Assembly (NCBI RefSeq): GCF_040760075.1
Contig: NZ_CP142884.1
Span: 4,340,001-4,404,000 of the forward strand
Direction: 5' to 3'
DNA length: 64,000 nt
Origin: Sphingobacterium sp. R2
Lineage (GTDB): Bacteria; Bacteroidota; Bacteroidia; Sphingobacteriales; Sphingobacteriaceae
Shown piece after piece: positions 9,161-35,773 of the stretch. Numbering within the stretch: position 1 is the stretch's first letter; the number at the start of each line of letters is the position of its first letter. A program made the position numbers and the translations under genes. The notes below the pieces were generated by a model. That model saw only the letters and a program-made list of their open reading frames with translations, made no database searches and was not told the origin of the DNA.

Positions 9161-9321
9161 ATGAAGTGGAGGGATTACTAAGGCATCAAGTATGACAAAC
9201 TGCGAAGCATTAAAAAAGAATGGGATGCAATCCGATTTCTTTTTTAACTTGGTTTGGCATATCTTTATGCTAGTGATTCCGAAACGGAATGCCATATTTC
9301 CTCATTATAACTTATCTGAAT

Positions 9322-10389
9322 ATGAAGAATGAAATTCTTAATGAATTTGAGAGTAAAATCCATGTTTATAACAGGTTTAAGGATAAATCTCTTAGTTTAC
9401 TTAATGATTTACTAAAACAAAAAAAAATAGCCTTTCATAACATAGACGGGAGAGTAAAAAACTATGAAAGCTTATCAAGTAAAATTGATAGAAAATCTGA
9501 GAAATACAAATGTCTTTCGGACATTACAGATCTAGTGGGGATAAGAATTACTTCTTATTTGGAAAGTGATGTAGATTTAATTGACAAATTAATAAGAGAT
9601 GAATTTCAAATAGATAATGATAATTCCATAGATAAAAGGATTTTAAATAGTGATCAATTTGGATATAAGTCATTACATTTAGTTGTAGAATTAGACAATA
9701 GAAGATTACAGCTTTATGAAAATTCAGATTTTAAAAATTTAAAAATTGAAATCCAAATTAGATCTATTTTGCAACATGCTTGGGCTGAAATTGAACATGA
9801 CTTGGGTTATAAAGGGAAAGCGCAAATTCCCGATGATTATAAAAGGAGTTTTAATCGACTTTCAGCTCTATTGGAATTAGCTGATCAAGAGTTTGTTAGA
9901 TTGAAAAGGGATTTGGTTAAGTTTGAAAGCAAGGTGACAGAGCAGATAATTCGAGAACCTCAAAATGTTCTAATAAACTTTGCTAGCCTCAAGCAATTTA
10001 ATTCAGAAAATTCCATTATCATTGAAGCTAGAGATTTATTAGCTAATAAAGTAGGATGGGAATATCTAAGTCGAAGTAATTCATTTGTAGATTTGGTTCA
10101 ACGGTTTGATTTTTTTAACATGCTTACAATTGAAGATATACAAAAGGAATTAAAGATAAATAAAGATTTGTTTTTTAGTTTCTTAAAAGTTTTTACGGAT
10201 GGGTTTACATATAAATCAATATCTTACGATATTATTATATATTACTTACAGCATTTTCTTGCTGCCAAAACAAAAGATAAATTATATATCCAAAAGTATT
10301 TAATGGAGAGTTCTCAAGTATCTATTGATGGAGATCCTATAGATTTTATTAGAATTATCGAAGTGGCTGAAAGCCGATTAAAACTATAA
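9322..10389 (+). CDS. RelA/SpoT-domain nucleotide pyrophosphokinase (small alarmone synthetase type)
   Basis: A stand-alone (p)ppGpp-synthetase-type domain in the first half of a 355-residue protein: RVKNYESLSSKI (substrate loop), DLVGIRI with the metal-binding Asp, GYKSLH, and EIQIRSILQHAWAEIEHD with the catalytic acidic residue. No hydrolase, TGS or ACT domain is present, so it is not the housekeeping Rel. The last roughly 160 residues are unknown. Stand-alone synthetases in defence islands include toxSAS and CapRel-type antiphage toxins, so that role is possible here. I start at the ATG at 9322 because the protein from 9289 adds a poorly conserved hydrophobic lead overlapping a small hairpin. 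Confidence 0.85.
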   Translation: MKNEILNEFESKIHVYNRFKDKSLSLLNDLLKQKKIAFHNIDGRVKNYESLSSKIDRKSEKYKCLSDITDLVGIRITSYLESDVDLIDKLIRDEFQIDNDNSIDKRILNSDQFGYKSLHLVVELDNRRLQLYENSDFKNLKIEIQIRSILQHAWAEIEHDLGYKGKAQIPDDYKRSFNRLSALLELADQEFVRLKRDLVKFESKVTEQIIREPQNVLINFASLKQFNSENSIIIEARDLLANKVGWEYLSRSNSFVDLVQRFDFFNMLTIEDIQKELKINKDLFFSFLKVFTDGFTYKSISYDIIIYYLQHFLAAKTKDKLYIQKYLMESSQVSIDGDPIDFIRIIEVAESRLKL

Positions 10390-10551: not shown

Positions 10552-11941
10552 TGTAAACTGAACTGTGTCATTGGATAATTAACCAAAATCTAAAAGCCGC
10601 TATCAAGTTTGAGCCTATCCCCAAATTTAATGTAAAGTTGGGATATGGTCAAGCCCCAGTTATGCACAGGCATTGTCCACTTTTTATAGATGTCCTTTAT
10701 TATCAGAAACATCAGCTTCATAAGAACCTGCTCAGAACTGAATGCACCTTTAGACTTCGTTATTTTTCGAATCTGACGGTGCATTCCTTCAATAGGATTA
10801 GTGGTATAGATAGTCTTACGTACCTGCTCATCATACTCAAAAAAAGTAGAGAGGTTTATCCAGTTATCGAGCCATGACTTAGCGGCTATGGGGTATTTCT
10901 TGCCCCATTTCTCTTCAAAGACCAGTAGTTTTTCATATCCCATTTCTTCGTTTACAGCTTTATAAATGGGCTTTAAATCTTCAATAACAGCCTTTTTGTC
11001 CTTTTCTGTAACGTATCGCATGCTTGATCTAATCTGATGGACAATGCATAACTGAACTTTTGTTTTTGGAAAAATAGCTTCTATAGCTTCAGGAAAGCCC
11101 TTCAGTCCATCAATACATGCTATCAGGATGTCCTCTACACCGCGTTGCTTTAGATCGGTGAGTACGGATAACCAGAATTTAGCTCCTTCGTTTTCCGAAC
11201 TATAAAGCCCTATCAGGTCTTTACGTCCATCCATTCCTATGCCCAGGATATTGTAAATGGCCCGGGACTCAACAGTACCGTTCTGACGGACTTTATAATG
11301 CATGCAGTCTAGGAAGACAAAGGGATAGACGGCTTCTAGCGGACGACTTCGCCACTCGTTAACAGCAGGCATGACGCTTTCTGTAATGCGGGATATTTCA
11401 GTTGCAGAAATCTCCATAGCATACATCTCGCGGATAAAATCACTTATTGCACGTGTGCTCATACCTTTGGCATACATGCTCAACACGTGTCCCTCAAGCT
11501 GTTCTGTTATAATAAGCTGACGTTTGGGTACTACCTTGGGCTCAAATGTACCCGATCTATCCCGTCCAGATTCAAGCTCAAATGTACCGGTATTAAGACC
11601 TCGAACAGTCTTTTTGGTCTTGCCATTACGACGATTGGAGTTCGCGGAAGCTTTATCTTCCTGAAGGTGACTTTCCAGCTCGCTATCCATCATCGACTCC
11701 AGTAAGTGCTTAATTAAGGGCGCTAGAACGCCATCATTGGGAGATAAACTCTTTCCGTTATAAAGACCTTGCATAGCTTCCTCTTTGAAGCGTTCAAAAC
11801 GGCGAAGCCCTCTTGAGTACATTTAAAAACAAACACTAACGAAAAATCAAATGGGGTCTTTTCTTTCATGACCATGTCGTTTGAATAATTAAATATAAAA
11901 AAACCTTATTGAATTATTTCGTTGACACAGTTCACGTTACA
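10552..11941. mobile_element. IS256-family insertion sequence
   Basis: The left end TGTAAACTGAACTGTGTCA at 10552-10570 matches in inverted form the right end at 11923-11941 (about 17 of 19 positions). It encloses one intact transposase gene. No convincing 8-9 bp target duplication is visible at the borders, so the flanks may have rearranged. A solo copy of the same end is found at 56370-56388. Confidence 0.85.
10590..11822 (-). CDS. IS256-family (Mutator-type) DDE transposase
   Basis: A 410-residue transposase of normal length. The DDE triad can be placed in VFLDCMHYKV (first Asp), LIACIDGLKGFPEAI (second Asp) and NPIEGMHRQIRKITKSKG (Glu). The N-terminal LESMMDSELESHL is the usual family start region. 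It appears intact and so potentially active. Confidence 0.95.
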   Translation of the reverse strand: MYSRGLRRFERFKEEAMQGLYNGKSLSPNDGVLAPLIKHLLESMMDSELESHLQEDKASANSNRRNGKTKKTVRGLNTGTFELESGRDRSGTFEPKVVPKRQLIITEQLEGHVLSMYAKGMSTRAISDFIREMYAMEISATEISRITESVMPAVNEWRSRPLEAVYPFVFLDCMHYKVRQNGTVESRAIYNILGIGMDGRKDLIGLYSSENEGAKFWLSVLTDLKQRGVEDILIACIDGLKGFPEAIEAIFPKTKVQLCIVHQIRSSMRYVTEKDKKAVIEDLKPIYKAVNEEMGYEKLLVFEEKWGKKYPIAAKSWLDNWINLSTFFEYDEQVRKTIYTTNPIEGMHRQIRKITKSKGAFSSEQVLMKLMFLIIKDIYKKWTMPVHNWGLTISQLYIKFGDRLKLDSGF

Positions 11942-14754: not shown

Positions 14755-15837
14755 ATGGAAGAAAAGGATAAAAATAAAAATGGTCACGAAAGTAGTGAAT
14801 CAAGTTCTGACTTTATAAAAAATAGAATTAAGCAACTTCAAGAAAGAGGCGGTAAATTAGATTACAATATTGAGAGCGGTGGTTATAACTCTGTAGTGGA
14901 AAAATATAAAGAGTACATTAACATGAGTAAAATTATTTCCAATTCCAAAAGCAAAATTGCTATTGAAGAGCAAATAATTGACTTGAAGAGACAGCTCATT
15001 GCTGCGCAAGGTGATAAAGAAAAGTCACTAATAATGTTGAAAGAAATAGAAAATAAGCAAAAAAGTTCACATATTATTAGTAGGATCCATGAAGAAGCAG
15101 TATCCAAGTACTTAAGTTCAGCAGAGTTCAGTGCCAATTTTGAACATGGCAAAGAAACATTCGCAGTGGTAGTTTCAATTGACATAAGGCGTTCAACTGA
15201 ATTAATGTTAAAAGCTAAGAGTCCTACCCAATATTCTGATTTTATAACAGCACTAAGCGATAAGTTATCTAAAATAATAATTGAAAACTTTGGAATTTTT
15301 GATAAGTTCACTGGAGATGGAATTTTAGCATTTTTTCCTGAATTTTATAGTGGAGAAGAAGCAATATTAAGAGCTTTAAAAGCTGCTGAAGAATGTCATT
15401 TAGTTTTTAAAGAGCACTATAAAAATTGTAGGAATAAATTTACTGTATTTATAAAGGACGTAGGTTTAGGAATTGGAATTGATAGTGGTATCGTTAGCAT
15501 AGCTAATACTTCATCTGAATTGACAGTTGTCGGAATCCCAGTTGTGTATGCTTGTCGTTTCTCGGGTGCAAAAGCAGGTGATACGCTTCTAAATATAGAA
15601 GCACATCAACGTTTATCTGCTCTTAAACATCCAATGGTAAAAGATATTGAGGAGACTGAGATCCACATAAAAAATGAAGGGCTAGCAATGGCGTTTAAAG
15701 TAAAAATAGATAAGGATCAATTCTCTCAAAATGACACTTATCCATGGGAGGCTTACCAAGATGATGTTAAGACGGAAACAACGCCGACTGAAGAAGCCGC
15801 TAAATCAGAACATAAAAAGAAAAAAGGCGCTGGTTAG
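14755..15837 (+). CDS. Class III nucleotide cyclase, Pycsar-type candidate
   Basis: Residues 1-120 are charged and helical with a probable coiled coil (60-105). Residues 133-300 form an adenylate/guanylate cyclase domain: VSIDIRRSTEL with the first metal Asp (Asp143) and KFTGDGILAFF with the second (Asp188). The Lys four before Asp188 is the adenylyl-type position. In the region that normally reads GDxVNxAxR this protein has GIPVVYACRF, so the transition-state Asn is absent while the Arg is kept. It is cytosolic, with no sensor domain. The next plus-strand gene encodes a one-TM protein, which recalls Pycsar cyclase/effector pairs. A changed nucleotide preference is inference. Confidence 0.8.
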   Translation: MEEKDKNKNGHESSESSSDFIKNRIKQLQERGGKLDYNIESGGYNSVVEKYKEYINMSKIISNSKSKIAIEEQIIDLKRQLIAAQGDKEKSLIMLKEIENKQKSSHIISRIHEEAVSKYLSSAEFSANFEHGKETFAVVVSIDIRRSTELMLKAKSPTQYSDFITALSDKLSKIIIENFGIFDKFTGDGILAFFPEFYSGEEAILRALKAAEECHLVFKEHYKNCRNKFTVFIKDVGLGIGIDSGIVSIANTSSELTVVGIPVVYACRFSGAKAGDTLLNIEAHQRLSALKHPMVKDIEETEIHIKNEGLAMAFKVKIDKDQFSQNDTYPWEAYQDDVKTETTPTEEAAKSEHKKKKGAG

Positions 15838-15989: not shown

Positions 15990-16129
15990 TTATTATTTAT
16001 TTACAAAAGAAGTAACACTATTTGCATTATACTCCTTTAATATAAATAGTCTGTTATTTTTGAAAAGTGCGCAAAAAAAAGTGCTTTTTTTACTTTGGAA
16101 TACAGATTCAATATAATATCAACCAAACA

Positions 16130-16798
16130 ATGGAATATACTTGTAAAGATGGAATTGAGATGCTATCTGATGTTGCTACTGTTATTATTGCTGGTATAGC
16201 TTTATACTATGCTTGGCGCACCTATGGGGTTGCTAAAGAAGCAAAAGATGAATGGAAGAACGAAAAAAACCTTGATATATTAGTCAGGTTTTCTAAAGTA
16301 TTTCCAAGCTCAAAAGAGCTAATAGTTGATCTTAGAAATCCATATTCATTTGATTTTGAACATAAAAAAGGCATTAAATTACTAAAAGAAAGAGGTAATC
16401 ATTTAAACGAAGAGTATCAAGAAACACATTCAGAATTTATAAAAATTCAATACAGATATTTAAAATATGAATCATATGTTAATGAATTGTTTAACATGGA
16501 GTATGAGGCTTTGTTTGTTTTAGGTGAAAACAACGCTATAACGAAATACATTCGATTTATAAAAAAAACTAAGGAAGATATTTTTGATTCAGCATTGAAG
16601 ATTGGGTATTATAAATCATTTAATAATAGTGATAAATTGACTAAAGAAGAGCATTTGCAAAAGAGCAAATTAATCAGAGAACATAGGAAAATTATTTTTA
16701 GCATTGGTGATGATCAGATATCAAATGATCTTCATAATTACTACAGTGATTGTGAATCATTCTTAAAATCTCATCAAGCAAGATTCAAAATTACTTAA
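16130..16798 (+). CDS. Single-TM protein next to the cyclase, possible membrane effector
   Basis: A 222-residue protein with one N-terminal membrane helix (about 12-30, DVATVIIAGIALYYAWRTYG) and a charged, helical cytosolic part. No cyclic-nucleotide-binding fold is recognised, which argues against a standard PycTM. The start at 16130 is chosen because the ORF extension from 16067 lacks conservation features. It is co-directional with the cyclase, about 290 bp downstream. A membrane effector of the cyclase is a guess from context. Confidence 0.6.
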   Translation: MEYTCKDGIEMLSDVATVIIAGIALYYAWRTYGVAKEAKDEWKNEKNLDILVRFSKVFPSSKELIVDLRNPYSFDFEHKKGIKLLKERGNHLNEEYQETHSEFIKIQYRYLKYESYVNELFNMEYEALFVLGENNAITKYIRFIKKTKEDIFDSALKIGYYKSFNNSDKLTKEEHLQKSKLIREHRKIIFSIGDDQISNDLHNYYSDCESFLKSHQARFKIT

Positions 16799-16916: not shown

Positions 16917-16982
16917 CTGTAAGTGTCCCAAAAAATCAAACAGCTTAAAACTGGACATAAATGTTTAGATTTAAGTAATAAA

Positions 16983-17273
16983 ATGAAAAAAACACGTTTT
17001 ACAGAAAGCCAGATTGTGCGAGCACTCAAAGAGGGCGAAGAAGGCAGAAAGACCGAAGACATCTGCCGTGAGCTGGAAATTAGCAAGGCCACATTTTATA
17101 ACTGGAAGAGCCGTTACGGAGGCATGGAAGCCTCAGATGTCAAACGCCTAAAGGAACTTGAGGAAGAAAATGCACGTTTGAAAAAGATGTTTGCCGAACT
17201 GAGTATGAACCATGATATCCTAAAAGAAGTCATCACAAAAAAAGGTTGGGGCTCCGGCAGCAAAAACAGTTAA
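16983..17273 (+). CDS. IS3 OrfA (second element)
   Basis: A 96-residue helix-turn-helix protein starting MKKTRFTESQIVRALKEGEE, with KTEDICRELEISKATFYNWK as the recognition helix region, then a coiled coil ending LKEVITKKGW. I start at 16983 because MKKTRFTE is the typical IS407/IS51-group start. It overlaps orfB by 28 bp. Confidence 0.88.
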   Translation: MKKTRFTESQIVRALKEGEEGRKTEDICRELEISKATFYNWKSRYGGMEASDVKRLKELEEENARLKKMFAELSMNHDILKEVITKKGWGSGSKNS

Positions 17274-18091
17274 CCCAGGAAATTGTCGTAGATCACGGTT
17301 TGAGTGTCACCGGAGCCTGCAAATTGACAGGCATGTGCCGTTCACAATATTACTATGTTAGTAAGAAAGATGACAGTGCAGTCATATCTGCATTAGATGA
17401 TCTGTCCGCCAAACATCCTGTATATGGATTCCGAAAACTTTACGCTTATCTGCGCAGAGCGGGGAAGCCCTGGAATCACAAAAAAGTTCATCGGGTGTAT
17501 AAGCTATTAAATATGAACAGGAAGCGGCGTGGCAAACGTCGGCTACCTGCTCGGGAGAAACAGCCTCTGGAACAACAGGTCAGCATTAATCAAAAATGGA
17601 GCATGGACTTTATGAGCGATAGCTTGGCCAGCGGAAACAGGTTTAGAACCTTTAATGTGATGGATGACTGTTCCCGTGAGATATTGTGTATCGAAATAGC
17701 TACTTCAATTTCTTCTTTGCGGGTAACTCGGACACTTGAACAAATCATAGACTGGCAGGGCAATCCGCTCTGTCTACGCGTAGATAATGGTCCTGAATTC
17801 ACCAGTCATCATTTTGAGCTCTGGTGTAAAGACCAAGGCATCGCTATTCAATTTATCCAGCCCGGTAAGCCTATGCAGAACGGGTACATCGAACGGTTCA
17901 ACCGAAGTTATCGCAAAGAAATTTTGGATGCTTATTTATTTTTCAACTTGTCAGAAGTAAGAGAACATACCCAGGCATGGATGGATGAATACAATAACAA
18001 CAGACCCCATGAAGGTCTTGGGAATCTTACACCAACGGAATTATCAAAAAATATTAGACACAAACAACAAATAAATCAATTAGTAACGTAA
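17246..18091 (+). CDS. IS3 OrfB DDE transposase (second element)
   Basis: An integrase-core protein of 281 residues: SMDFMSDSL (first Asp), LRVDNGPEF (second Asp), GYIERFNRSYRKEIL (Glu), and the terminal YNNNRPHEGLGNLTP motif. Translation is expected through -1 frameshifting in the overlap with orfA. It looks intact. Confidence 0.92.
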   Translation: MGLRQQKQLTQEIVVDHGLSVTGACKLTGMCRSQYYYVSKKDDSAVISALDDLSAKHPVYGFRKLYAYLRRAGKPWNHKKVHRVYKLLNMNRKRRGKRRLPAREKQPLEQQVSINQKWSMDFMSDSLASGNRFRTFNVMDDCSREILCIEIATSISSLRVTRTLEQIIDWQGNPLCLRVDNGPEFTSHHFELWCKDQGIAIQFIQPGKPMQNGYIERFNRSYRKEILDAYLFFNLSEVREHTQAWMDEYNNNRPHEGLGNLTPTELSKNIRHKQQINQLVT

Positions 18092-18524: not shown

Positions 18525-19667
18525 TTAATTTTGACTACCTAACGCTGAACAAAGCTCTTTGTTGACAACTCTATTCCTCATTTTTTGCTTATTTCTAAAA
18601 TGACGCGAAATATTTTGCGTGATCTCTAAATAGTTGTCGGTATTAACATCTTTTTGCCAGTAATAGGGTTTTATCGCAGCACAATTGTCATGTTCAAATA
18701 TCATATTTAGCAATGTCCTATCCGAAAGACCACAAGAATGCCCCCATATATACACAACATAAGAATCTGAATCAATTAAATCAATAAGTTGTTTATAGTT
18801 TGTATTGTTAAAATACCCAAATGACTTTATATAGGTTAAAAAATCATTGTTATTGGTTTTTTCCATTTCAAGATAATCAGAGTCTATCTCATCTCCAAAG
18901 CCAAAAATTATAGGATTATTCTGACGTTTAACAGATCCATGTATATCAATATGATTGTACTTCCTCCTATTTAATTGGTAAGGTAAACCTGTATAATTGA
19001 AATTTAATATAGTTACATCTTTGGCCGTTATATATCGACTGTCTTTATAATCCTCTTCTTGTATATTTTTTATATGATGCTTATCAATAATAATTTTAGA
19101 ATCAATTGATTCATCTGCACAATAGTCAAAATTGTATTCTACTTCAGCTCCCTCACTAACGATCTTAAGATACTCGTATAAAAGACTTTTTAGTAGTTCA
19201 AAATCTGCATTAATCTTCTTTAATCTTTTCTCCGCCTTCTCTTCTTCTCCAATAGTATTGAATAGAGATAGACAATCTTTCAATAATTTGTAATATGTCA
19301 TTTCAATATCAACCCAGTTTCGTTCGCGTTGATGACTCATTAAACGCAAAAACAATTCTGATTTCGAAGTTAAATGAAATTTAAACATTCCTCCATTAGA
19401 TATGAAATCCGGACTATACGCACTCGATTCAAAATTAAATTCTGTGATCAACCACAAAGCTAGCTGTTTATAATCCGTTATATCCCTGCAATTGTTACCT
19501 TGATAAATTACATTGTGAGATATTTCAATCAATTCTTTATACTTTCCATCGTCATTTGAAGAACTTTTGAAACAATTGATTAGATACCAAATCAGGAAAT
19601 CTGTATATTTTGTTGGTAATTTATTATGGATGTCGAAACCATTTCCAACAATGATAAGTTTATTCAT
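18525..19667 (-). CDS. abiH: AbiH-family abortive-infection protein
   Basis: The first residues, MNKLIIVGNGFDIHNKLPTK, are the characteristic AbiH N-terminus (nucleotide-binding-like GNGFD, then a YxxFL element). The C-terminal half contains ILNFNYTGL and YIWGHSCGLSDRTLLNMIF, the second family signature. At 380 residues it is full length. It is the last gene of the minus-strand defence run, 89 bp after the Shedu gene. AbiH proteins abort phage infection by an unknown mechanism. Confidence 0.88.
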   Translation of the reverse strand: MNKLIIVGNGFDIHNKLPTKYTDFLIWYLINCFKSSSNDDGKYKELIEISHNVIYQGNNCRDITDYKQLALWLITEFNFESSAYSPDFISNGGMFKFHLTSKSELFLRLMSHQRERNWVDIEMTYYKLLKDCLSLFNTIGEEEKAEKRLKKINADFELLKSLLYEYLKIVSEGAEVEYNFDYCADESIDSKIIIDKHHIKNIQEEDYKDSRYITAKDVTILNFNYTGLPYQLNRRKYNHIDIHGSVKRQNNPIIFGFGDEIDSDYLEMEKTNNNDFLTYIKSFGYFNNTNYKQLIDLIDSDSYVVYIWGHSCGLSDRTLLNMIFEHDNCAAIKPYYWQKDVNTDNYLEITQNISRHFRNKQKMRNRVVNKELCSALGSQN

Positions 19668-19756: not shown

Positions 19757-21019
19757 TTACGACATATTATCAATACTTACGACTTTAAGCAAACCTTTTA
19801 ATTTCATTAATATTTCATCAAAGGTCACTATTTCCACATTTTTTTGACTCGATCTTAATAACTCAAAGCAACGACGTTGAGAATCAGTGAGCATGCTTTT
19901 TGTACCAATGACAAGTATGCATTTGGGATCAAATGATGGATTGTTTCTGCCGAAATCTTTTATAAAATTATCTTTTTGATCTAGACATTGTGTGATCCCG
20001 GCGGATAATTCGTCAGACATTGGAAAGACATCCGGTTTGCGGTAAGCAATTTTTTTGAAAAGATCTTTTTTATGTGTTTTGGTTTCTAGTAACGCATAAT
20101 TATCTTTGAAACCGTTTTCGAATAAGAAATCAAGAATTCTTCCTTGATCATTATCTATAGTTTTTCCTCCAACATATGCCTCTTTTTTACGCAAAATAAC
20201 CTCATAGGGAAAAAGGTGAGACAATATCCAAGCATTTTTCTCAAAAAATGCTTGCCATTGTTTTTCATTGTCTTTACTTGAAGAAGATAATTTCTCAAAT
20301 TGTTTAATAACATCTTCAATATAGACCTTATTGATCTGTTCCTTACTATTTATAAAATTAGATGTTGTCTTAATAATACTGGGAGGGATAAGATCTAGAA
20401 TTGACGAAAGAGCGTTCAGGTCCTCTTGGTTAACTTTAGCAAAAGAATCATATTTTCCAAGAAAACGGCCAAGCTCCCCACTTGGCATATATCGTTTAGA
20501 AAGTGTGATAGTCGAATTTATCCTACCCAAGCCTTTATTTATTAAAAACGCTTTTTCCTTATCATATGTCATCTTTTCTTTATAAATTTCATTGAGTATT
20601 GTTTTTAAATCCGCCCAATTTAATGAAATATGATCTTGCTTGAAGCTATTGGGAATATTAATTCCTATAGTATAATTAAAAACATCTCTATATTTCAGGT
20701 AAAGACCTGCAAAAAAATGTCTAGCCCTGAGTGTTTTAAGCCCATATTTTCCTGTCACACGAAAATCATGTGGAATATCCTCAATACTGTCCCATCCAAT
20801 CAACTCGAGTTTTCTTATCCGTTTCGGTTTTAAAGATCCCTCCTTTTGGTCTACTGAATAGGGAAAAAACACAATTCTTTTTTCTTTCTTATAAACTTCT
20901 TTTGTTAAAAACACAGGCTTTCCAGATTCATCACAATAATGATAAACTTCAAAATCTAAAGTTTCTTCAGTCAAATTCTCTTGATTTGGTGTGTATGTAG
21001 TTTTTGAATTTTCCATCAA
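19757..21019 (-). CDS. sduA: Shedu-type DUF4263 defence nuclease
   Basis: The single-gene Shedu system uses a PD-(D/E)xK nuclease domain (DUF4263). Here it lies at residues 250-415: KQWQAFFEKNAWILSHLF opens the domain, Asp297 in GRILDFLF and Glu312/Lys314 in LLETKTH form the active site, and ITQCLDQKDNF follows. The N-terminal 240 residues are the variable sensing region. The length, 420 residues, fits. A probable own promoter lies in the 109-bp AT-rich gap after the reverse transcriptase gene. Confidence 0.88.
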   Translation of the reverse strand: MMENSKTTYTPNQENLTEETLDFEVYHYCDESGKPVFLTKEVYKKEKRIVFFPYSVDQKEGSLKPKRIRKLELIGWDSIEDIPHDFRVTGKYGLKTLRARHFFAGLYLKYRDVFNYTIGINIPNSFKQDHISLNWADLKTILNEIYKEKMTYDKEKAFLINKGLGRINSTITLSKRYMPSGELGRFLGKYDSFAKVNQEDLNALSSILDLIPPSIIKTTSNFINSKEQINKVYIEDVIKQFEKLSSSSKDNEKQWQAFFEKNAWILSHLFPYEVILRKKEAYVGGKTIDNDQGRILDFLFENGFKDNYALLETKTHKKDLFKKIAYRKPDVFPMSDELSAGITQCLDQKDNFIKDFGRNNPSFDPKCILVIGTKSMLTDSQRRCFELLRSSQKNVEIVTFDEILMKLKGLLKVVSIDNMS

Positions 21020-21128: not shown

Positions 21129-22937
21129 TCACTTCTTTAAAGTATTATAATAATAGCTGTAAGGTTTCCCATAGTGTTTAATTTGAAAGCTTCTTTTGTC
21201 ATCTTTGTCGGTTGTATCGTCCACTTTGGTAGTTTGGTCTTCTCTATATTTTTTTTCTATAAATTTCATTAGTTTATGAATTTTCAAGCTTCGGCTTCGG
21301 TCTAAACTTTTCAATTGTCTTCGAGAATGAATATTATCATTCAATATTTTAAAACCTTTAGCCCATGACATTTCATTTGCATAAGACTTGTAGTTCCAAA
21401 GATCTACCCTTCCTACTGACATAGATACCATTCTTTTCTGAAGTGAACCTAGAATAGAAGAAGAAGAGCTCTTTCTCTTAACATTTTTAAGAATTCTTTT
21501 CATCTCTAACATCAAATCAGCCTGTTTTTTAAGCTCTTTTTTTAAAGTAGATCTGCGAATTCGAATATCTCCAAAATAGTTAATCTCTAGTCCTACAAAA
21601 CCAACCCAAAATGTGTTTTTCGTATCATCAGAAGTCCATTTATAGCATAGTTTTGATTTACTAGACCAAAATTCAACAAGATTCTTGAAGTCTGGACCTA
21701 CATGAGGGTGAACTACTAGCTTGTATTTTGTTAATGAATTAATATATGCACCATAACTTTTCACGCAAATGTTTCTATCAGTACTCAAGATAATCATGTC
21801 ATCGCAAAAACGTAGATATAATGAATTTTCATCTAGATGTTTAATTACCTTACAGTCCGCATCATGAAGTAATATATTTGCAATAAAACCTGACAAAGCT
21901 CCTCCTTGTGGAATCCCTATTCTTGTCCTATTTAAATCTTTATAAAAATCATTTTCTAGAAATTCCTTTTCAACCCAATCAAATCTCCCATTTTCAATCT
22001 TAAAATCTCTGAAATACTCCTGATTACTACTCAGAGAACGAACATCCTTATTAAAATTATATGATTTTAAATACTCTTTCAAAATACGCCTCAAAAGACG
22101 TAAGTCTTCTATTGCAAATTTTCTAAAGTACTTCTGTTTTACAAACTGATCGAATCTTTTGATCACAAAAGAATGATTAACAGTGTCAAAGAATTTGCAC
22201 ATGTCACATTCTGCACCCCAAATTACTTTATCTGAATGTTTTGTTCTAAAATCAATAATGTTCTTAAATGCATCAATATGATTTGGCGACCTATCTCCTT
22301 CTGGAAATTCCCTTACAGCTCTAAAAGCATATCCACAATCCTTAAATATCTCGTCAAAAATTTTAACTGCATATTTGTTCGCAATTGATAAAATAATTTT
22401 ATCTGTTAAACTATAAATTGACAAAGGTCGACATATTTTAAATCCATCATCCTCCTTTTTTAAAACGGGTATAACATTTGGCTTATTTAACAATATATTA
22501 CCACTTTGAAAATTTTCGCAAATACTTGCTATATAAACATCTAATTTTTTCAAGAATTCTGATGAAGGTTCTCGCTTCTTATAATATTTGACAGTTAACT
22601 TCAAACTGATCAGGTTTCTTTCCGTTGAAGTTTTTGGTAATCTATTTTTGTTATTTCTCAAGTTTGGATCAAGTTTCAACCACTTTCTTCTCGGAGGGAA
22701 AAGCGACATTAGAAATAGATCTTCTTTGTTTTCCTTACACTTTTCTCCTTTAATGTGATCAAAATAATAATGTTTCGCATTCCTCTTGAAAGCAACTTTA
22801 CATCTAAGTTTACATAGTATGTTAAAAATTGCTTCATAATTGTAGTACTCAGAGAATTGAAAAGAAGAGTGGGAAGTACCCGACAATTTATACTCAGCTA
22901 GTTTCGCCATTCTAAACATTGTTTGACTCAAAAACAC
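21129..22937 (-). CDS. Reverse transcriptase of the non-mobile, defence-like type
   Basis: A 602-residue protein with ordered RT motifs: CRPLSIYSLTDKIILSIANK (170-188), catalytic Asp245 in ECDMCKFFD, GIPQGGALSGFIANILL (341-357), and the active-site Asp379/Asp380 in RFCDDMIIL (FCDD instead of YADD), then FVGLEINYFGDIRIRRS. No maturase or HNH domain follows, so it is not a group II intron protein, and no template/variable repeat suggests a DGR. Three Met codons (22937, 22919, 22910) are possible starts. The first overlaps the upstream gene by 26 bp. It belongs with the unknown-group/DRT RTs; the subgroup cannot be assigned by eye. Confidence 0.88.
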   Translation of the reverse strand: MFLSQTMFRMAKLAEYKLSGTSHSSFQFSEYYNYEAIFNILCKLRCKVAFKRNAKHYYFDHIKGEKCKENKEDLFLMSLFPPRRKWLKLDPNLRNNKNRLPKTSTERNLISLKLTVKYYKKREPSSEFLKKLDVYIASICENFQSGNILLNKPNVIPVLKKEDDGFKICRPLSIYSLTDKIILSIANKYAVKIFDEIFKDCGYAFRAVREFPEGDRSPNHIDAFKNIIDFRTKHSDKVIWGAECDMCKFFDTVNHSFVIKRFDQFVKQKYFRKFAIEDLRLLRRILKEYLKSYNFNKDVRSLSSNQEYFRDFKIENGRFDWVEKEFLENDFYKDLNRTRIGIPQGGALSGFIANILLHDADCKVIKHLDENSLYLRFCDDMIILSTDRNICVKSYGAYINSLTKYKLVVHPHVGPDFKNLVEFWSSKSKLCYKWTSDDTKNTFWVGFVGLEINYFGDIRIRRSTLKKELKKQADLMLEMKRILKNVKRKSSSSSILGSLQKRMVSMSVGRVDLWNYKSYANEMSWAKGFKILNDNIHSRRQLKSLDRSRSLKIHKLMKFIEKKYREDQTTKVDDTTDKDDKRSFQIKHYGKPYSYYYNTLKK

Positions 22938-24282
22938 TGTTAATACTTACGACTTGCCCCACACTTAATTCGGAAGCCATCTTTGGTACTTCACCACTCC
23001 CTTTATAACCTTTCTTATAAGCGAGTTCAATTATTATATTAAAGGAATATCCTTCATAGTTCTTTAAATATAGATTTTCTAAAAAAACTTCACAATGTTT
23101 ATCATTATATTTACCTGGATCTTGTTGGCTAAGTAATTTAAAATACTTCACACCAATATCATAATCAAATGTTTGAACAATTGCCTTTCCAACTTTTTCC
23201 CATTCATAATATGAGAATGTAATTGATAATCGATTTTTTGCTAAATACTTTATTATATTTTTAATCTTTCTTCGATTAGGGTCTACTCCTCTATCTTGGT
23301 AACCTATTTTGTTAGCTAAATACAAAATTGTTGCAAAAGAAAACTCTTCTCTAGTATCTAAATACCTTGCTTTTAGAAATCTTTCACACTCTCGTTTATC
23401 ATATTTTGCTGTATCCTGCATGCTGAGCATCTGAAAATACTTAAGTCCAATATTAAAAGTAAAACAACAAGCAATTGTTCTCGCGACAATTTGCCAATCG
23501 TTGTATGCATCAGTTATTGATAAATCACGCTTCTTTAAGAACCGAATAATATTGCTTATTTCTTTTCTGTGCCAGGAACTGTTCTTGTTTTTTGGACTGT
23601 TGAGTATGTCAGCCTCTACTGTTAAATCTGCATATGAAGTAATTTTTCTTTTATTAGATTTTACTTTGACAGTCGGAATTAATATAACAGGAAACCTATC
23701 AAAATTTCTATTGTATGAAAGTTTACTATCGTAAGAAAAAAAACATGTCCTAACTATATCCTTTCCGGATTTGTCCAAAACTATTTTGTAAGTATTATAA
23801 AAATAGCTTTTCACTTCACTAAAAGCACTTTGATGAAAATAAGCAGCTTGTTCTAAAGGAAAATCTACTTTATATTCTAAGTATACAATGCCCTTTAACC
23901 CCAAATTGGATGGAGAACGCCAACAGGATACTACATACTTATCATTACGTAATAAATTCTCCATTGCTACAACTTGATCTTCATTATCTAAATCATCAAT
24001 ATCAAGCACAAGTAATCCTGTATAGCTCTTGAGATTATTTGTATTTCTATTAACATGAAACGTTGCAGCAAATGTTATTGCTGGTAATTTCTTCTTTTCT
24101 TCTTTATATATTTTCTCATTTCCGTCAGATAAGAGCGCTCTAAGTGCTTCAATATCCTTCCTGTATTTTCCTTTATAAATATCTGTTAAAACTTCCCTAA
24201 CAGATATTTCTTTTATAAAATTGGCTTGACTACCCCGAACACTCTCTTGATAGAAAACAGTAAATGATAAAGGATCATTCAT
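22912..24282 (-). CDS. BT4734/VirE_N primase-like protein with tandem PriCT-like domains
   Basis: Residues 60-200 match the BT4734/VirE N-terminal domain, an archaeo-eukaryotic-primase-like core: LLVLDIDDLDN carries the acidic metal motif, SPSNLGLKGIVYL the nucleotide loop, and GKDIVRTCFFSYD the third element. Two PriCT_2-like helical repeats follow, at 240-330 and 337-427, clearly duplicates of each other (both have LSIT, W, FxxGxKYF, LSxQD, KY). It overlaps the RT gene and starts 12 bp after RdrB, so it is coupled to both. Primase-like proteins of this kind are usually plasmid or phage replication genes; pairing with an RT is unusual. Confidence 0.75.
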   Translation of the reverse strand: MNDPLSFTVFYQESVRGSQANFIKEISVREVLTDIYKGKYRKDIEALRALLSDGNEKIYKEEKKKLPAITFAATFHVNRNTNNLKSYTGLLVLDIDDLDNEDQVVAMENLLRNDKYVVSCWRSPSNLGLKGIVYLEYKVDFPLEQAAYFHQSAFSEVKSYFYNTYKIVLDKSGKDIVRTCFFSYDSKLSYNRNFDRFPVILIPTVKVKSNKRKITSYADLTVEADILNSPKNKNSSWHRKEISNIIRFLKKRDLSITDAYNDWQIVARTIACCFTFNIGLKYFQMLSMQDTAKYDKRECERFLKARYLDTREEFSFATILYLANKIGYQDRGVDPNRRKIKNIIKYLAKNRLSITFSYYEWEKVGKAIVQTFDYDIGVKYFKLLSQQDPGKYNDKHCEVFLENLYLKNYEGYSFNIIIELAYKKGYKGSGEVPKMASELSVGQVVSINSVFESNNV

Positions 24283-24293
24283 AGATTTTATAG

Positions 24294-26654
24294 CTAGGTA
24301 AAGCGGTAAATTAAACTGTTTTCATTAATCTCTGAAATTATCTCTATCGCTTCCGAATGAGATAGGTGATGATGCTGAATGAGCATCAGATAAACACTGG
24401 CATATTCATTATAGATATTTGTTGCAAATATTCCCGCATCATCTGTTCCAATGACTATAGGAGGTATACTTAATCCCTGTTTTTTCCATTTAATCCAATT
24501 GTATAACTGATATGTACCGAAATCTTTATGAATTCCTATTCGTACGTTACTTGTAGGAAGTGTTTCTATCACAATTTCTTGTTTATTCATATATTTCAAT
24601 AGTGCCTTTTGAAAAAGTTCTAAGTCGGAGGCCGAAAAAAATTCTATTGGATCTATATTTTCTACAATGTCTCGATCCTGCTTAATTTCAGAAGTATGAT
24701 ATAAATTATGTATTTCCTCGGCTTGAATATACATCCTTTTATGATCTTGTGAAAAAACGTATTCATCCGAACTAAAGTTTCCATGTAGGCTAGCTGCATC
24801 CTCTTCCATATGCAATGGACATGCAGATCTTAATAACCAAGCTTGTTCTATAATTCCAATAGCATAGAACTTTTTATATATATCAAATGCCAAACCCTGA
24901 ATTTTTGTAATTAAATGCGGTAATTGGGTTTTCAATTCTTCTATGTTTTGTGAAACAATAAAATGATAGGCAAAAACTAAATCGTCTAAATAATCCCCTT
25001 TTCTTATATAAATATTTTTTCCAACTTCATTACACCAGAGTTCGGGGGATAAACCCGCAGCAGTTGCGTGCCCAATGCGATCTCCATTTTTTAACCCGCA
25101 GAATTTTATTGCTTCATAGATTGCCCGAATACCACTTAAAATATGATGAAAGTCTTCTCCTGCATGAAACGTAAAGTGCCTTACTCCGGCTCTCCTAAGC
25201 ATTCGAAATATGGGTGCAAATACCTCAGGAGGAGTATCGAATTCGCTGGATGCAGCATCTATACCAACGACAGGTATGTCTTGATAGCCGCCGTTTTTAT
25301 TTAAATATAATTTTAAAACATGAGCTTGAGCAAATAAACTTTTCCGAAGCTTTTCAAATCTGACCTTCCAAGGAGTTGATGTATCTTCTTTGACTTTTAT
25401 AAAATGAACTATTAACTTTAAAGTCGCAATTTTTGTTCTCTCACCCTTAGCATAACCAAGAAATTTATTCCAACCTTGAGTAATCCCTTTTAATAGCAGC
25501 CGTAGTTCCGTTTCATTGTTTTTAGGAGCAATCCTCCCTTCAATATAATTAATATCATTTCCATTATTCCCACTTAATTGATGAAAACGTCTAAAATATG
25601 TTGATTCACTATACCGTCTAATATCATTTAGTGTTATCTTTTGAAATTGTTCAAATCCTTTTTGATGTTTTTGTTGTACTAGCAATCTATTTGTTAATCC
25701 TAGAATTAAATTATAAAAATGGAACATAGAAGATAATACATCATTGTGGTTCTTTTTTATCTCTTTAAGAAGGAGGACGTACATTAAACATTCAATTGAA
25801 TGGGGATGATGGTAATCTTGATTATCACTTTCAATATAATCAAGAAAGGGATGAGGTGCCTGATATTGATCAAAAAAACTATCACCGTCATTCAATAGCA
25901 GACTTAGCAAACATTCCTTACTTTCGAAAGACGAAAGTGTTTCTGGTTGATTACAGCACATAAAAAAATACTGTCGCAAACGGGCAGCTATTTTTAATAA
26001 ATGGGTGTATTTAACAGGTGTTAACAAAAACGATTCCTGTTTCAATTGCTCAAGAACTTTCTCTTTGTTAACAAAAGATTTTTTTAATTCTTTATGAATT
26101 TTATCTGGATGTAACAATAAATCTTGCCAAACTATATCTGTTTCCAATGTACCATTTAAATGTATATGTAAATCATGAAAACCTCCCCAATTCTTTGATT
26201 TAGAATTCAATTGGATGATGTTAGGTTTTAATAAACACGTATTCTGAGTATTTTTGAGAATATATCTTTCAAAAAAGTCTTTCACTAATATATTCTCTTT
26301 AGATGTTTCTAATAAATATGGCTCCAACTTATGTGCTATAAAAACTAAAGGAGAAATATGACAAATATATTCCTGCCAACCAAAAAACTCTAGACTTCTA
26401 ACAACAAGATCCTGTCCTTCAATGGAAAGAAATCTGTCAGCCATTTTTGGAATTGACACCACAAACAAATCTCCAATTGAATTCACATCTTTAAAAAACT
26501 CTTCTTTTTCGAGCCGATAATAATGGTCTGGTAGGTTTCGGTTTTCATCCCTTTTCTTTAAAAAAGAATTTATGCCAACATGCTTTATATCTACAAACTC
26601 ATTGGAGTAGTATTTTTCCAAAGACTCTATATCATCAAAAAGGTATTTTAACAT
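24294..26654 (-). CDS. rdrB: RADAR adenosine deaminase RdrB
   Basis: A 786-residue adenosine-deaminase-fold protein: metal ligands in HDLHIHLNGTLE (160-171), GIDAASSE (463-470), HAGED (496-500) with catalytic Glu neighbours, DRIGHAT (524-530), and VIGTDDAGIFAT near the C-terminus. This is far longer than housekeeping deaminases (about 350 residues) and matches RdrB. It starts 3 bp after the RdrA ATPase. In RADAR, RdrA and RdrB assemble during phage infection and deaminate adenosine nucleotides. Confidence 0.9.
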   Translation of the reverse strand: MLKYLFDDIESLEKYYSNEFVDIKHVGINSFLKKRDENRNLPDHYYRLEKEEFFKDVNSIGDLFVVSIPKMADRFLSIEGQDLVVRSLEFFGWQEYICHISPLVFIAHKLEPYLLETSKENILVKDFFERYILKNTQNTCLLKPNIIQLNSKSKNWGGFHDLHIHLNGTLETDIVWQDLLLHPDKIHKELKKSFVNKEKVLEQLKQESFLLTPVKYTHLLKIAARLRQYFFMCCNQPETLSSFESKECLLSLLLNDGDSFFDQYQAPHPFLDYIESDNQDYHHPHSIECLMYVLLLKEIKKNHNDVLSSMFHFYNLILGLTNRLLVQQKHQKGFEQFQKITLNDIRRYSESTYFRRFHQLSGNNGNDINYIEGRIAPKNNETELRLLLKGITQGWNKFLGYAKGERTKIATLKLIVHFIKVKEDTSTPWKVRFEKLRKSLFAQAHVLKLYLNKNGGYQDIPVVGIDAASSEFDTPPEVFAPIFRMLRRAGVRHFTFHAGEDFHHILSGIRAIYEAIKFCGLKNGDRIGHATAAGLSPELWCNEVGKNIYIRKGDYLDDLVFAYHFIVSQNIEELKTQLPHLITKIQGLAFDIYKKFYAIGIIEQAWLLRSACPLHMEEDAASLHGNFSSDEYVFSQDHKRMYIQAEEIHNLYHTSEIKQDRDIVENIDPIEFFSASDLELFQKALLKYMNKQEIVIETLPTSNVRIGIHKDFGTYQLYNWIKWKKQGLSIPPIVIGTDDAGIFATNIYNEYASVYLMLIQHHHLSHSEAIEIISEINENSLIYRFT

Positions 26655-26657
26655 ATG

Positions 26658-29381
26658 CTAATTAGTGAAGTAACTTTTTTCTTCAAGATAATTCCGAAAG
26701 TTACGAATATGTTCAGATGACTGAAGAAAAGGTAAAAGGTTCCGAATAATTTTATTATTTGCCGTATTAGTAACCGTATCCATATTTTTAAAAAGTTTCA
26801 TATCAACCCCTTCATTTTCAAGTAAACCTATTAACTTTTCATAATTTACTTTTTTTATTAACGATTTGTCAGATTTCCAGTCCGTTCGTTTATTATTATT
26901 AACGTTTTCTGAGCTTCTTTTAACAGCTAAAGAAACATTATCTAATAACTTGTATACATTAAACTTTGTATCTAAAGAATAATCATAAAACTTCTTCAGT
27001 TCATTTACTAAATCTTTTTTCGACTCATCTAAATAAGCAATTATCATAGGACAACCTATTAGCCACTTAGAGAGTTTCAGTTTATCTTTCTCACCTGGCT
27101 TCTTATTTTTACTTCCATTAACTTTCTTCAAATTGTCAATGAAAACTTTCTCAGAACTAACAATGTTACTATGGTTCAAGTCTAGAACTCTTGAATCACC
27201 TGATGAAAGATTTTCTCTAACATCTTCAATTAGAATCGCATTCATGAAATTCACAATACTAAGATGGAAGAGCCGACCTAGCTTTCTTTCATTATGAGAA
27301 TTCATTAAATTAGAAATTCCAACATAAAACCGTGTAAAAATTTTTCCTAACAAATGAATAGATAGATTATTACCTCTAAAGTCCTCCATCCATTTATTCA
27401 CTATTTTCGTAAATTCCTGAATATCTTTATCTTCAGATCTATCTGGCATTTCTGTCTCATTAAACTCTTCACTATTATCACTATCATCACTATCATCCAT
27501 TTCGTTAGAAACCTTTTCTTGAAAAGAATAATATCTTATCTGGGACAATTCAGTAAATGCAAGTTCCAAATTGGAAATATCATTTACAAAGAGATCAAAT
27601 CGTTTTAATAATTCACCAATTGAAGAAAGCAATGTATAAAAAGAATAGAACAACTCACTTCCATTCGTATACAAATGTTCTCCAGCTAAACAAGGAACAT
27701 AACCTAACATCCGTTGAGCACTAGAGACTTCTTTCTGATTTAAAACAGCATCTAGACGATCTTCCAAACCTGATTTCTTGGCTACCATCTTTAAGCCCAA
27801 CAAACTAATCAACGAAAAACTATTGCCCTTTTTGACTTTAGATGAGTAATGATAAATTTGCATAGTGTTCATTATATCTCTTAACACCAAATCATTCAGC
27901 ACTCCACTTTCCTTGATTAATCCTCTCTCCAAACTGTATCCCTCAGGATAATAATCAATAATATTTCTTAGAAACGAAATGCGAATTAGATAATCAAATA
28001 TTAAGAATCTGTATTTACTAACGGCGGAAGAGAATAATATATTTAAACTAAATACCCCAGCGTTTAAACTATTATCAGAGGATGTTGGAGAAAGTTGGTA
28101 TAATTCCTTTAATTGTTTATCTCTAATTAACAGTTTGAGTATTTCTATATTTATATTTTTTGGTGAATTAACTAGTGTTTCGATAAGAATATTTTTTTCA
28201 TATAAATCAGCTAAGAGAACCGATACTATATTTACATTGTAAGTTAATTCAACATCATCATCTTTAATAGATTTTACAATTCTTTGCAAAAAATGTACTA
28301 TAGTACGTAGGGGTTGGTTTAACAAAAAATGTTTTTGACTTTCTAATTGATATCCATTATTTACCCCTAATTGGGCAAATATCTTTTGAAGTAGCTTTTC
28401 GAGAGGCATCGACATCTCTTTTTCAGAAACCTGTATATTAATACATAATCTGTTAGTTGAATTCAAAACGTTGTATAGAGTATCTAATTGAAAACGATAT
28501 TGAGGTTGCATAATTTTCAAAAGATATTGCGACGTCAGATCTGTTACCATATCATCATAATACCGAATCCTACCATCAGCCTCATTAGATTGATATTCTT
28601 TAGAGGCTTCATAACGAAGTATTTCTTGACCAAAATTTTTCCATTTACTTTGTCTTATTAATGAATTATACAACTTAAAGTCCCCACTTAAAACTGTAAT
28701 AATCCTTCCAGTAATAAAATATTTTCTTATGGTTTCTAAAATAGCATAACCTTTAGATGAATCCACATCTATATCGTCAAATAGTACTAAGAAGACTTCC
28801 TTTTTTAAGATGTCAAGTGATTTTGTTAAAAATTCATTAAAGTACTGTCTTAAATTTCTTGCAGCTCCTACAGCTCTCAACTCGTTCTCCATTACATATT
28901 CTGGATCCTGCCAAACGAATTCTGAATCTCTTGAAAGATGATCTATTGATGGAAGACCTGCGGCTAATTTAGTAACACTTTTCTTCCATTGATTTTCAAT
29001 GTCTTTATTAAACTTATAGGGATTACATCTACAAGATGTAAAATGATTATTGACCAAATCACAGATTGCTGATATAAGATTAAGAAAAACGTGTCCTTTT
29101 TCTTCAATCAATGTCGGGTCAATAATATTTAAAACTTCAATTTCTTCATGAGATTTTAATTCATTTTCAAGACTTAGTAGAAAAGACGTTTTTCCACTAC
29201 CTCTTGATCCAAGTAGGGTTATCGTATTATGAGAATGATTTGAATCCAAATCCTCTATAAGAAATTTACTAATTAATGATTTTACTGCATTAAATTGAGA
29301 TAGATGTATAATGTTCTTATCATTAAATTTCTTTGCATTTGTACTTTCATTTAATATAATTGTAGTATTTGTTTCTGCCAT
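26658..29381 (-). CDS. rdrA: RADAR ATPase RdrA
   Basis: A 907-residue P-loop ATPase: Walker A LLGSRGSGKTSF (56-67), and Walker B FLVLFDDID (197-205). A long helical C-terminal region has an acidic low-complexity stretch (MDDSDDSDNSEEFNETE, about 635-650). Length, ATPase architecture and direct coupling to an RdrB-like deaminase identify it as RdrA. It is the first gene of the minus-strand operon. The promoter must lie in the roughly 55 bp before it or within the decayed YbjQ-like gene upstream. Confidence 0.88.
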   Translation of the reverse strand: MAETNTTIILNESTNAKKFNDKNIIHLSQFNAVKSLISKFLIEDLDSNHSHNTITLLGSRGSGKTSFLLSLENELKSHEEIEVLNIIDPTLIEEKGHVFLNLISAICDLVNNHFTSCRCNPYKFNKDIENQWKKSVTKLAAGLPSIDHLSRDSEFVWQDPEYVMENELRAVGAARNLRQYFNEFLTKSLDILKKEVFLVLFDDIDVDSSKGYAILETIRKYFITGRIITVLSGDFKLYNSLIRQSKWKNFGQEILRYEASKEYQSNEADGRIRYYDDMVTDLTSQYLLKIMQPQYRFQLDTLYNVLNSTNRLCINIQVSEKEMSMPLEKLLQKIFAQLGVNNGYQLESQKHFLLNQPLRTIVHFLQRIVKSIKDDDVELTYNVNIVSVLLADLYEKNILIETLVNSPKNINIEILKLLIRDKQLKELYQLSPTSSDNSLNAGVFSLNILFSSAVSKYRFLIFDYLIRISFLRNIIDYYPEGYSLERGLIKESGVLNDLVLRDIMNTMQIYHYSSKVKKGNSFSLISLLGLKMVAKKSGLEDRLDAVLNQKEVSSAQRMLGYVPCLAGEHLYTNGSELFYSFYTLLSSIGELLKRFDLFVNDISNLELAFTELSQIRYYSFQEKVSNEMDDSDDSDNSEEFNETEMPDRSEDKDIQEFTKIVNKWMEDFRGNNLSIHLLGKIFTRFYVGISNLMNSHNERKLGRLFHLSIVNFMNAILIEDVRENLSSGDSRVLDLNHSNIVSSEKVFIDNLKKVNGSKNKKPGEKDKLKLSKWLIGCPMIIAYLDESKKDLVNELKKFYDYSLDTKFNVYKLLDNVSLAVKRSSENVNNNKRTDWKSDKSLIKKVNYEKLIGLLENEGVDMKLFKNMDTVTNTANNKIIRNLLPFLQSSEHIRNFRNYLEEKSYFTN

Positions 29382-34297: not shown

Positions 34298-35773
34298 CTA
34301 CATGTCAGTTGATTTTTTGAAGTTCTGTGGAAAAAGTTCCTTTAAGTTTTTATGGTTTATAGACATGATTTTTTCCAGCGTGTGCTTTAACCACTGGAAC
34401 GGATTTACCTCGTGCTTTTTGCAGATAGCAAAGAACGAGTAGATCATTGCAGCCCGCTGTGCTGCTTCATGGCTTCCTGCAAAGAGATAGTTTTTTCGTC
34501 CCAGGGCAACAGGGCGAATAGTATTCTCGACAAGATTATTATCAATAAGTAGATTTCCATCATAGAGGTATGCTGATAGCGCATCCCATCTAGCGTATGC
34601 ATAGGCCATTGCTTTTCCGATCTGGCTTTTAGGGAGCGTATTCTTTATCTCTTCAAAGATCCACTTGCCCAGATCATTGATTATAGGTAAGGATCCTTCC
34701 AGCCGTAGTTCCTTTATCTTTTCTGGGGAAAGATTATCCTGTTTTGCTTTTCGCTCGATAGTATATAGCTGCTGTATCATCAACAGCGCTTTTTCTGCTC
34801 TGGGTCTGTCATTCTCCAAAGCTTTTTCGAACTCACGGCGCGCGTGTGCCCAGCAGGCCAGGTGTGTCACCTCTTTCTTTTTGGCATACTTTTCATAAAC
34901 ACCATATCCATCCGTCTGGAGATATCCTTTAAAGTTTCCAAGCATGGGCACGGCAGCAGCGCCACCACGGGTGGGACTATATTCAAATAGCACGATACCA
35001 TCCAATGGAGCGTGATAGACCCAATAATAACCGGTATGGGCAGCTCCTTTTTTATCGCTGTCCAGTACTTTTATCGGTGTCTCATCAACCTGTAAATATC
35101 CCTGTGTTTTGGTCTGGAAGATAAGCTGCTCATAAAGGGGGTCTAGTTTTTCGAGTGCCTGTTTTGTCCAACCTTCGATCGTTGATGAGGGGATCTGTAT
35201 GTTTTCCCTTGCGAAGATCTGCTTTTGGCGGTATAATGGGAGGTGATCCATATACTTATGTGTTAGGATCATCGCCAGCAGGCCTGCCCCGGGGATGCCT
35301 TTATCGATGACACGCTCGGGAAGCCCTGCGATGGATATACCATCTCCGTCTTTAGCCGCATATTTATAACGGATGTAACGTTTGATATAGAACTTTGCAG
35401 GCTCGCACTCCAGCTCTTCGGTAATCTCTTTTCCAATACATACCATTTCAGACATGTCTCCTTCGGGGTGAATCTCGACCTCTTCTACCGGTAGATGTTC
35501 AAGTAACTTCGCACGTCCTTTATGGTGAGGACGTTTACGGACATACTCGATCTTTTCCTTGATTTCCTCCTGTTGCTGAACAACTTCGGCCGGCTCTGCT
35601 TCAAAGGGTAGCATGGTCTGGTTTGGGTCTCCTTCGAAGCGTTCACGCTTCTGTCCGAACTGCATACGATTGTACATGGCAAGTTGTGACTTTAGATAAT
35701 CTATCTCTTCATCACGGCTGGAAACAACCTTGATAAGGTCTTCTTTCGAGAGGTTTTCCAGCGCTTTTTCCAT
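34298..35773 (-). CDS. tnpC: IS66-family transposase TnpC
   Basis: A 491-residue TnpC: N-terminal coiled coil (EEIDYLKSQLAMYNRMQFGQ), the zinc/linker region, DDE-type core with LQVDETPIKVLD (Asp), TDGYGVYEKYA (Asp) and NLVENTIRPVALGRKNYLF (Glu), and a C-terminal NPFQWLKHTLEKI domain. It is full length and intact. TnpA and TnpB around it are only fragments, so the element is probably not autonomous. Confidence 0.93.
   Translation of the reverse strand: MEKALENLSKEDLIKVVSSRDEEIDYLKSQLAMYNRMQFGQKRERFEGDPNQTMLPFEAEPAEVVQQQEEIKEKIEYVRKRPHHKGRAKLLEHLPVEEVEIHPEGDMSEMVCIGKEITEELECEPAKFYIKRYIRYKYAAKDGDGISIAGLPERVIDKGIPGAGLLAMILTHKYMDHLPLYRQKQIFARENIQIPSSTIEGWTKQALEKLDPLYEQLIFQTKTQGYLQVDETPIKVLDSDKKGAAHTGYYWVYHAPLDGIVLFEYSPTRGGAAAVPMLGNFKGYLQTDGYGVYEKYAKKKEVTHLACWAHARREFEKALENDRPRAEKALLMIQQLYTIERKAKQDNLSPEKIKELRLEGSLPIINDLGKWIFEEIKNTLPKSQIGKAMAYAYARWDALSAYLYDGNLLIDNNLVENTIRPVALGRKNYLFAGSHEAAQRAAMIYSFFAICKKHEVNPFQWLKHTLEKIMSINHKNLKELFPQNFKKSTDM

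Follow-up and report, generated by a model that had tools for sequence, protein, structure and literature searches.

Introduction

The Class 2 DRTs studied so far use cis-encoded ncRNAs as templates (PMC12632851; PMC13174585). In DRT9 (UG28), which consists of a reverse transcriptase (RT) and an ncRNA and produces poly-dA, synthesis is primed from C-terminal tyrosines (PMC12483538), and in DRT10 (UG17; RT, SLATT protein and ncRNA, tandem-repeat cDNA) it is primed from a C-terminal Ser or Tyr. Two polymerases are found together in DRT3, where two RTs and an ncRNA give double-stranded DNA repeats, and in DRT7, an RT-primase fusion. The unknown groups (UG) of RTs were reportedly defined in Mestre 2022, and for most of them no template or product is known. 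One of these groups, UG39, is represented in PADLOC 2.0 (2023) by the model RT_UG39 and by RTasVirE-PriCT2, a model made for its RT association, both flagged as DRT. In the literature covered, which did not extend to Mestre 2022, no paper on UG39 as an RT group was found. Here we analyse a UG39 locus in a 64-kb stretch of bacterial DNA (the window; Table 1), together with its relatives in public genomes.

Results

The reverse transcriptase

Judged by its profile matches, the RT of the window is a full-length member of UG39. RT_UG39 matched positions 1-539 of its 541 with 599.5 bits (E 1.8e-180), while the next model reached 72.6 bits, and the same model matched 8/8 RTs tested, including three from a clade of relatives without a VirE partner. 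The Pfam match is RVT_1. Both IPQGGALS and FCDD motifs are present in the open reading frame (ORF), and the catalytic residues D245, D373 and D374 (596-aa numbering) are kept in 79/79 relatives. At the C-terminus, alignment with relatives revealed a PxSYYYQ tail that is near-universal among UG39 RTs, with a tyrosine (Y589 in the 596-aa numbering) that is invariant in 35/35 sequences of alignment A8. Since DRT9 and DRT10 prime from C-terminal Tyr or Ser residues, protein priming from this tail is a reasonable suggestion for UG39 as well.

An AF2 model of the RT was obtained with pLDDT 86.9, residues 1-16 of the 596-aa form being below 50. When this model was used for a fold search in the PDB, DRT9 gave the best matches (9vma, 9vku, 9nlv and 9ioa; best E 8e-16), followed by group II intron RTs and DRT2. 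A search of the PDB with the RT sequence profile likewise found DRT2 and DRT9 chains, ranked behind group II intron-type RTs. The predicted fold and the sequence thus suggest that the UG39 RT is related to DRT9.

The primase-like partner

The gene upstream of the RT encodes a protein that matched RTasVirE-PriCT2 over profile positions 6-315 of 320 (E 3e-118), as did 32/32 partner members tested. Pfam assigned BT4734-like_N (E 2.7e-29) and PriCT_2, the latter in two stretches. The second PriCT_2 copy is found in the window only among the relatives compared, whose VirE proteins of ~320-375 aa have room for one copy. The DxD of motif I and the D of motif III, as defined for AEP primase-polymerases (PMC5862659), are both present. 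The motif II His is absent, and a Lys (K130) occupies its place in 66/66 relatives. This His can be replaced in AEPs, for instance by Gln in PolpTN2 (PMC5862659), and the assignment of the partner to the AEPs is therefore based on motifs I and III and on BT4734-like_N. In a fold comparison AEP primases dominated the list with Z values of ~4-7 (max 7.0), which lie below the safe level of the tool and are suggestive only; the AEP matches in Foldseek were weak (E >0.06), and a PDB sequence search with the VirE profile found nothing meaningful. The VirE tail from residue 431 on has pLDDT below 50.

Recurrence of the pair

Public bacterial and archaeal genomes were scanned with an alignment of five UG39 RTs as query, which gave 80 loci. 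In 68 of them the next gene upstream of the RT is a VirE-PriCT2 relative, either colinear or head to head with it, and the gene order tracks the RT tree. Pairwise distances of RT and VirE are strongly correlated (r=0.92 for 64 pairs; 0/2000 permutations as high). Two of the 12 loci without partner (L040 and L066) start at a contig end. The remaining ten make up a single clade in which the neighbours vary; an OLD-like ATPase, named from reading, adjoins three of them (L062, L064 and L072). Because these ten loci have no AEP, it cannot be essential to every UG39 system. Sequence comparison across these loci thus identifies the RT and the BT4734/PriCT protein as a genuine, recurrent unit.

The original prediction, made from this DNA alone, had described the two ORFs with their positions, frames, strand and RT and primase motifs, all of which were borne out, and had proposed that the two proteins work as a pair. 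The profile comparison with unknown-group clades and the neighbourhood count that it suggested both agree with this proposal, the RT falling in UG39 and the partner recurring in several phyla with invariant catalytic residues. It had named the existence of such RTs without the partner as an argument against a functional pairing, and this situation was encountered in the one clade of ten loci only. Its further claim that the pairing is new does not hold, because PADLOC 2.0 contains models for both proteins; the UG39 RT/VirE-PriCT2 pair is already catalogued.

UG39 RTs were also observed outside Bacteroidota, namely in Methylococcaceae (L022), Treponema (L025 and L053), Planctomycetota (L077) and Acidobacteriota (L082 and L085); the taxonomy of these loci may be imperfect since they are metagenome bins. 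One UG39 relative was obtained in a plasmid search, in Thiospirochaeta, and none in the viral contigs and phage records searched.

Table 1. Positions of the genes and sequence elements discussed, in window coordinates.
Feature	Position	Strand	Evidence or remark
RelA/SpoT-domain protein	9289-10389	+	E 3.6e-22; also candidate defence model PDC-S33, E 4e-19
Transposase, Mutator-family (IS256-like)	10590-11822		
Pycsar cyclase-like protein	14755-15837	+	PycC E 1.7e-11
Protein with hydrophobic, possibly transmembrane stretch near N-terminus	16067-16798	+	no family match
Transposase, IS3-like two-ORF element	16923-18091		from reading
AbiH	18525-19667	-	Pfam PF14253 E 2.1e-21; adjoins Shedu
Shedu SduA	19757-21019	-	Pfam SduA_C E 2.2e-20; PADLOC E 6e-54; ~110 nt after RT
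UG39 reverse transcriptase	21129-22937	-	longest ORF, 602 aa from GTG
RT C-terminal tail PYSYYY (family PxSYYYQ)	21147-21164	-	S594-Y595 of 602-aa ORF; candidate protein-priming residue
RT active site FCDD	21798-21809	-	C-D-D invariant in 79/79 relatives
Conserved structured ncRNA	22860-23005	-	CM R2 and DNA alignment A5; spans VirE stop and RT ORF start
ncRNA closing stem, 3' strand GGGTACTTCCCACTC	22867-22881	-	in RT N-terminal extension codons; pairs with GAGTGGTGAAGTACC
ncRNA closing stem, 5' strand GAGTGGTGAAGTACC	22985-22999	-	in VirE C-terminal codons; covariation of this stem seen in relatives
VirE_N/BT4734 AEP primase-polymerase with two tandem PriCT_2 domains	22912-24282	-	456 aa; PADLOC and Pfam
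Second PriCT_2 copy	23002-23277	-	self-alignment score 214
AEP motif III, D170	23773-23775	-	66/66
AEP motif II region, S123-P-S...K130	23893-23916	-	S123, P124, S125, G128 and K130 in 66/66
AEP motif I, D94-I-D96	23995-24003	-	D94 and D96 in 66/66
RdrB-like adenosine deaminase	24294-26654	-	RdrB E 7.9e-36; 115.5 bits vs cut-off 600
RdrA-like KAP-type ATPase	26658-29381	-	RdrA E 1.7e-26; 193.7 bits vs cut-off 800
Transposase, IS66	34298-35773		

A predicted structured RNA between VirE and RT in relatives

The colinear relatives have VirE and RT as separate genes with a gap of usually ~80-180 nt and no overlap, and this spacer is strongly conserved together with the last VirE codons. Its predicted fold consists of a closing stem (GGGGTTCC / GGAACCCC in one group), helices P2 and P3, the motif GTCAGTAT and a P4 hairpin, and the loop of P3 is likely to pair with a downstream segment to form a pseudoknot. 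The pseudoknot pairing is better for own than for swapped partners (0/5000 permutations), in a comparison where the script cut some of the loops short and the pseudoknot is missing from a few members. In alignment A3 (17 sequences) all five covariation measures beat 500/500 shuffles, which ignore kinship, and all slid versions, and changes on both sides were observed in 17/28 pairs. The closing stem has 19 bp with compensatory changes in alignment A7 of six Sphingobacteriaceae sequences. A similar RNA fills the intergenic region of the divergent VirE/RT loci, where RNAalifold gave 48 pairs, 12 of them with compensatory changes, and in many of these loci the 5' end of the RNA is closely preceded by a Bacteroidota-type -7 box (TAnnTTTG).

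The CM R1 matched held-out relatives at the same place, including the Methylococcaceae locus (L022). Sequences upstream of the RT had a median folding z of -2.1 vs -0.16 in controls taken from the same loci (MWU p 1e-16), a difference in which shared ancestry partly remains; the median for the divergent group alone is weaker (-1.1). No Rfam family was found in this region of the window at E up to 1, and a search of seven relative loci gave tRNAs only. Comparative sequence analysis therefore predicts a conserved, covarying and cis-encoded structured RNA upstream of the UG39 RT, which is a feature of Class 2 DRTs. We found it described neither in Rfam nor in the literature covered; a prior mention in Mestre 2022 is possible.

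The RNA and the gene overlap in the window

R1 alone gave 12 bits at the window locus and ranked a terminator-like hairpin above it, so that the locus was not its best match in the region. The window RNA is accordingly a divergent member of the family, and for this reason a closer model (CM R2) was built from six Sphingobacteriaceae relatives with the window left out. Run on both strands of the 64 kb, R2 gave one match only (39.1 bits, E 5.1e-7), which includes both the VirE stop (22912) and the longest possible RT start (22937). In the last ~29 codons of VirE and the N-terminal extension of the RT, RNA sequence thus doubles as open reading frame. The folding z of the window RNA itself is modest (-1.5).

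This bears on the 26-bp overlap of the two ORFs (22912-22937) noted in the original prediction, which is real at the ORF level only with the first GTG as RT start, and is untypical of the family. The overlap had been taken to show that the proteins are made together. This interpretation fails, since the overlap lies inside the conserved ncRNA that separates the genes in relatives, and is best described as part of an RNA gene that both ORFs run across. We therefore rejected translational coupling as the main meaning of the overlap; coupling by re-initiation at the VirE stop/RT start may still occur in the window, without being the conserved feature. The RNA itself, like the RADAR-like genes directly upstream, had been overlooked in that prediction.

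The RT start is probably ATG 22919, with an 8-bp overlap at the VirE stop (ATGTTTAG), or ATG 22910, which gives no overlap; TTG 22886 is also possible. No in-frame ATG, GTG or TTG was seen from the ncRNA 3' end to the conserved RT start. The start must then fall inside the RNA, and the two ATG codons are the simplest options.

Possible template repeats

A DRT10-style A-B-A' template was considered for the whole UG39 family and was unsupported by dinucleotide shuffles. Such a repeat is absent from the window and clear only in two relatives (L042 and L019) and, as a CGATT tandem, in part of the VirE-less clade. There, a tandem (T)CGATTCGATT motif upstream of the RT (L062, L064, L065, L069, L072 and L087) could template a 5-nt repeat cDNA.

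Neighbouring genes

The locus lies in a low-GC (~30%) defence island flanked by transposases. Both upstream genes failed the curated NCBIfam RADAR cut-offs and are therefore called RADAR-like only. The RADAR-like pair seems to be a module of its own that is stacked with Shedu and AbiH in the island. Other Bacteroidota have a similar pair that is not accompanied by the RT and whose neighbours vary, for example an HNH-like ORF in L096 and McrBC-like ORFs in L097, both named from reading, and R1 found no convincing RNA at RADAR-like loci of other genomes. The cyclase-like protein and the adjacent protein with the hydrophobic stretch form a candidate Pycsar pair.

Discussion

We consider it fairly probable that the UG39 locus is a three-part system of the Class 2 DRT type, composed of an AEP, a cis-encoded ncRNA and a DRT9-related RT, and acting against phage. 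The ncRNA probably completes the machine as its third component, and it may be the template copied by the RT. The RT would bind the ncRNA and copy part of it into cDNA, which by analogy with DRT9 and DRT10 may be primed from the conserved C-terminal tyrosine. The AEP may prime or extend the complementary strand, or otherwise process or protect the product. Second-strand synthesis is the most economical proposal, given its domain identity and the analogy with the second RT of DRT3 and the RT-primase fusion of DRT7. On infection the DNA would accumulate and phage growth would be blocked, probably abortively. It is tempting to speculate that UG39 is a bipartite DNA writer, in which an ncRNA-templated, protein-primed RT makes a repetitive strand and the AEP its complement, giving double-stranded immune DNA by a route unlike that of the dual-RT DRT3, with the template RNA encoded within both coding regions in this genome. 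We regard this more specific version as tentative and rather doubtful.

The upstream element could instead be a cis-regulatory leader or attenuator that acts on RT translation only, with the RT making untemplated DNA like the Class 1 Abi RTs. In line with this, the 3' strand of the RNA, with a pyrimidine/T-rich stretch, stops immediately ahead of the RT ATG, and the window RNA covers the RT start and might from there regulate translation. However, the large size of the RNA, its several covarying helices and its likely pseudoknot speak against this, as does the promoter-like box that it carries at the 5' end in divergent loci, and by fold and sequence the RT groups with DRT9 and DRT2, which use ncRNAs. 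A leader function alone is thus unlikely.

The composition of the system may also be questioned from two sides. The window operon could represent one four-gene system in which RdrA, RdrB, AEP and RT are combined and deaminase and RT act jointly; the genes share one strand and are spaced by just 3 bp (RdrA-RdrB) and 11 bp (RdrB-VirE), and no TAnnTTTG box was found upstream of VirE. The neighbourhood counts do not support RADAR and RT as one system, RdrA/RdrB being present in 0/80 UG39 loci and in 0/6 order-level UG39 neighbourhoods (in part the same loci again), whereas such RdrA/RdrB genes occur without VirE or RT in four genomes; a fifth locus, at a contig end, shows RdrB only. Stacking of defence genes, as for the adjoining Shedu and AbiH, accounts for the arrangement, and joint action of the four genes is very unlikely. 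Conversely, RT and primase could be independent and kept together by clustering in defence islands or by mobility, the primase serving a mobile element. Bacterial mobile elements often carry AEP primases of this broad type (PMC5862659), and ten UG39 RTs do without one. But where the partner occurs it is adjacent every time, in 68/80 loci and several phyla, with tightly matching trees, and a dedicated sub-family model exists for it, so that independence of the two proteins is very unlikely.

The pair itself is of a known kind. The new part is the cis-encoded ncRNA and its embedding in both genes, of which no description was found within our coverage (Mestre 2022 lying outside it). With a covarying RNA of approximate boundaries, template and product of UG39 become directly testable, and the group is tied to DRT2, DRT9 and DRT10. 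That the usual partner is a dedicated primase-polymerase hints at a second way in which double-stranded immune DNA could be made. In the window the predicted ncRNA also codes for the last residues of one protein and the first residues of the next.

Compared with known systems, the locus is closest to the PADLOC UG39 pair (UG/Abi group 39), with the same two genes and full-length matches of both proteins, and differs in the extra PriCT_2 copy, the ncRNA embedded in both ORFs and the RADAR-like genes directly upstream. Among solved structures DRT9 comes nearest to the RT in fold, and the two systems have a cis-encoded structured ncRNA and C-terminal tyrosines in common, but no poly-U template tract was recognised in the UG39 RNA, and the AEP partner is a further difference. 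The three-part layout with the ncRNA upstream resembles DRT10, in part also the A-B-A'-like repeats of some relatives; UG39 has an AEP in place of SLATT, and the repeats are neither present in the window nor general. The RADAR-like genes are distant relatives of RdrA and RdrB, far below the NCBIfam cut-offs in contrast to RADAR itself, and appear to be a separate module. As in DRT3 and DRT7, a second polymerase would work with the RT, but UG39 has a separate BT4734-type AEP where DRT3 has a second RT and DRT7 a primase-polymerase domain fused to its RT.
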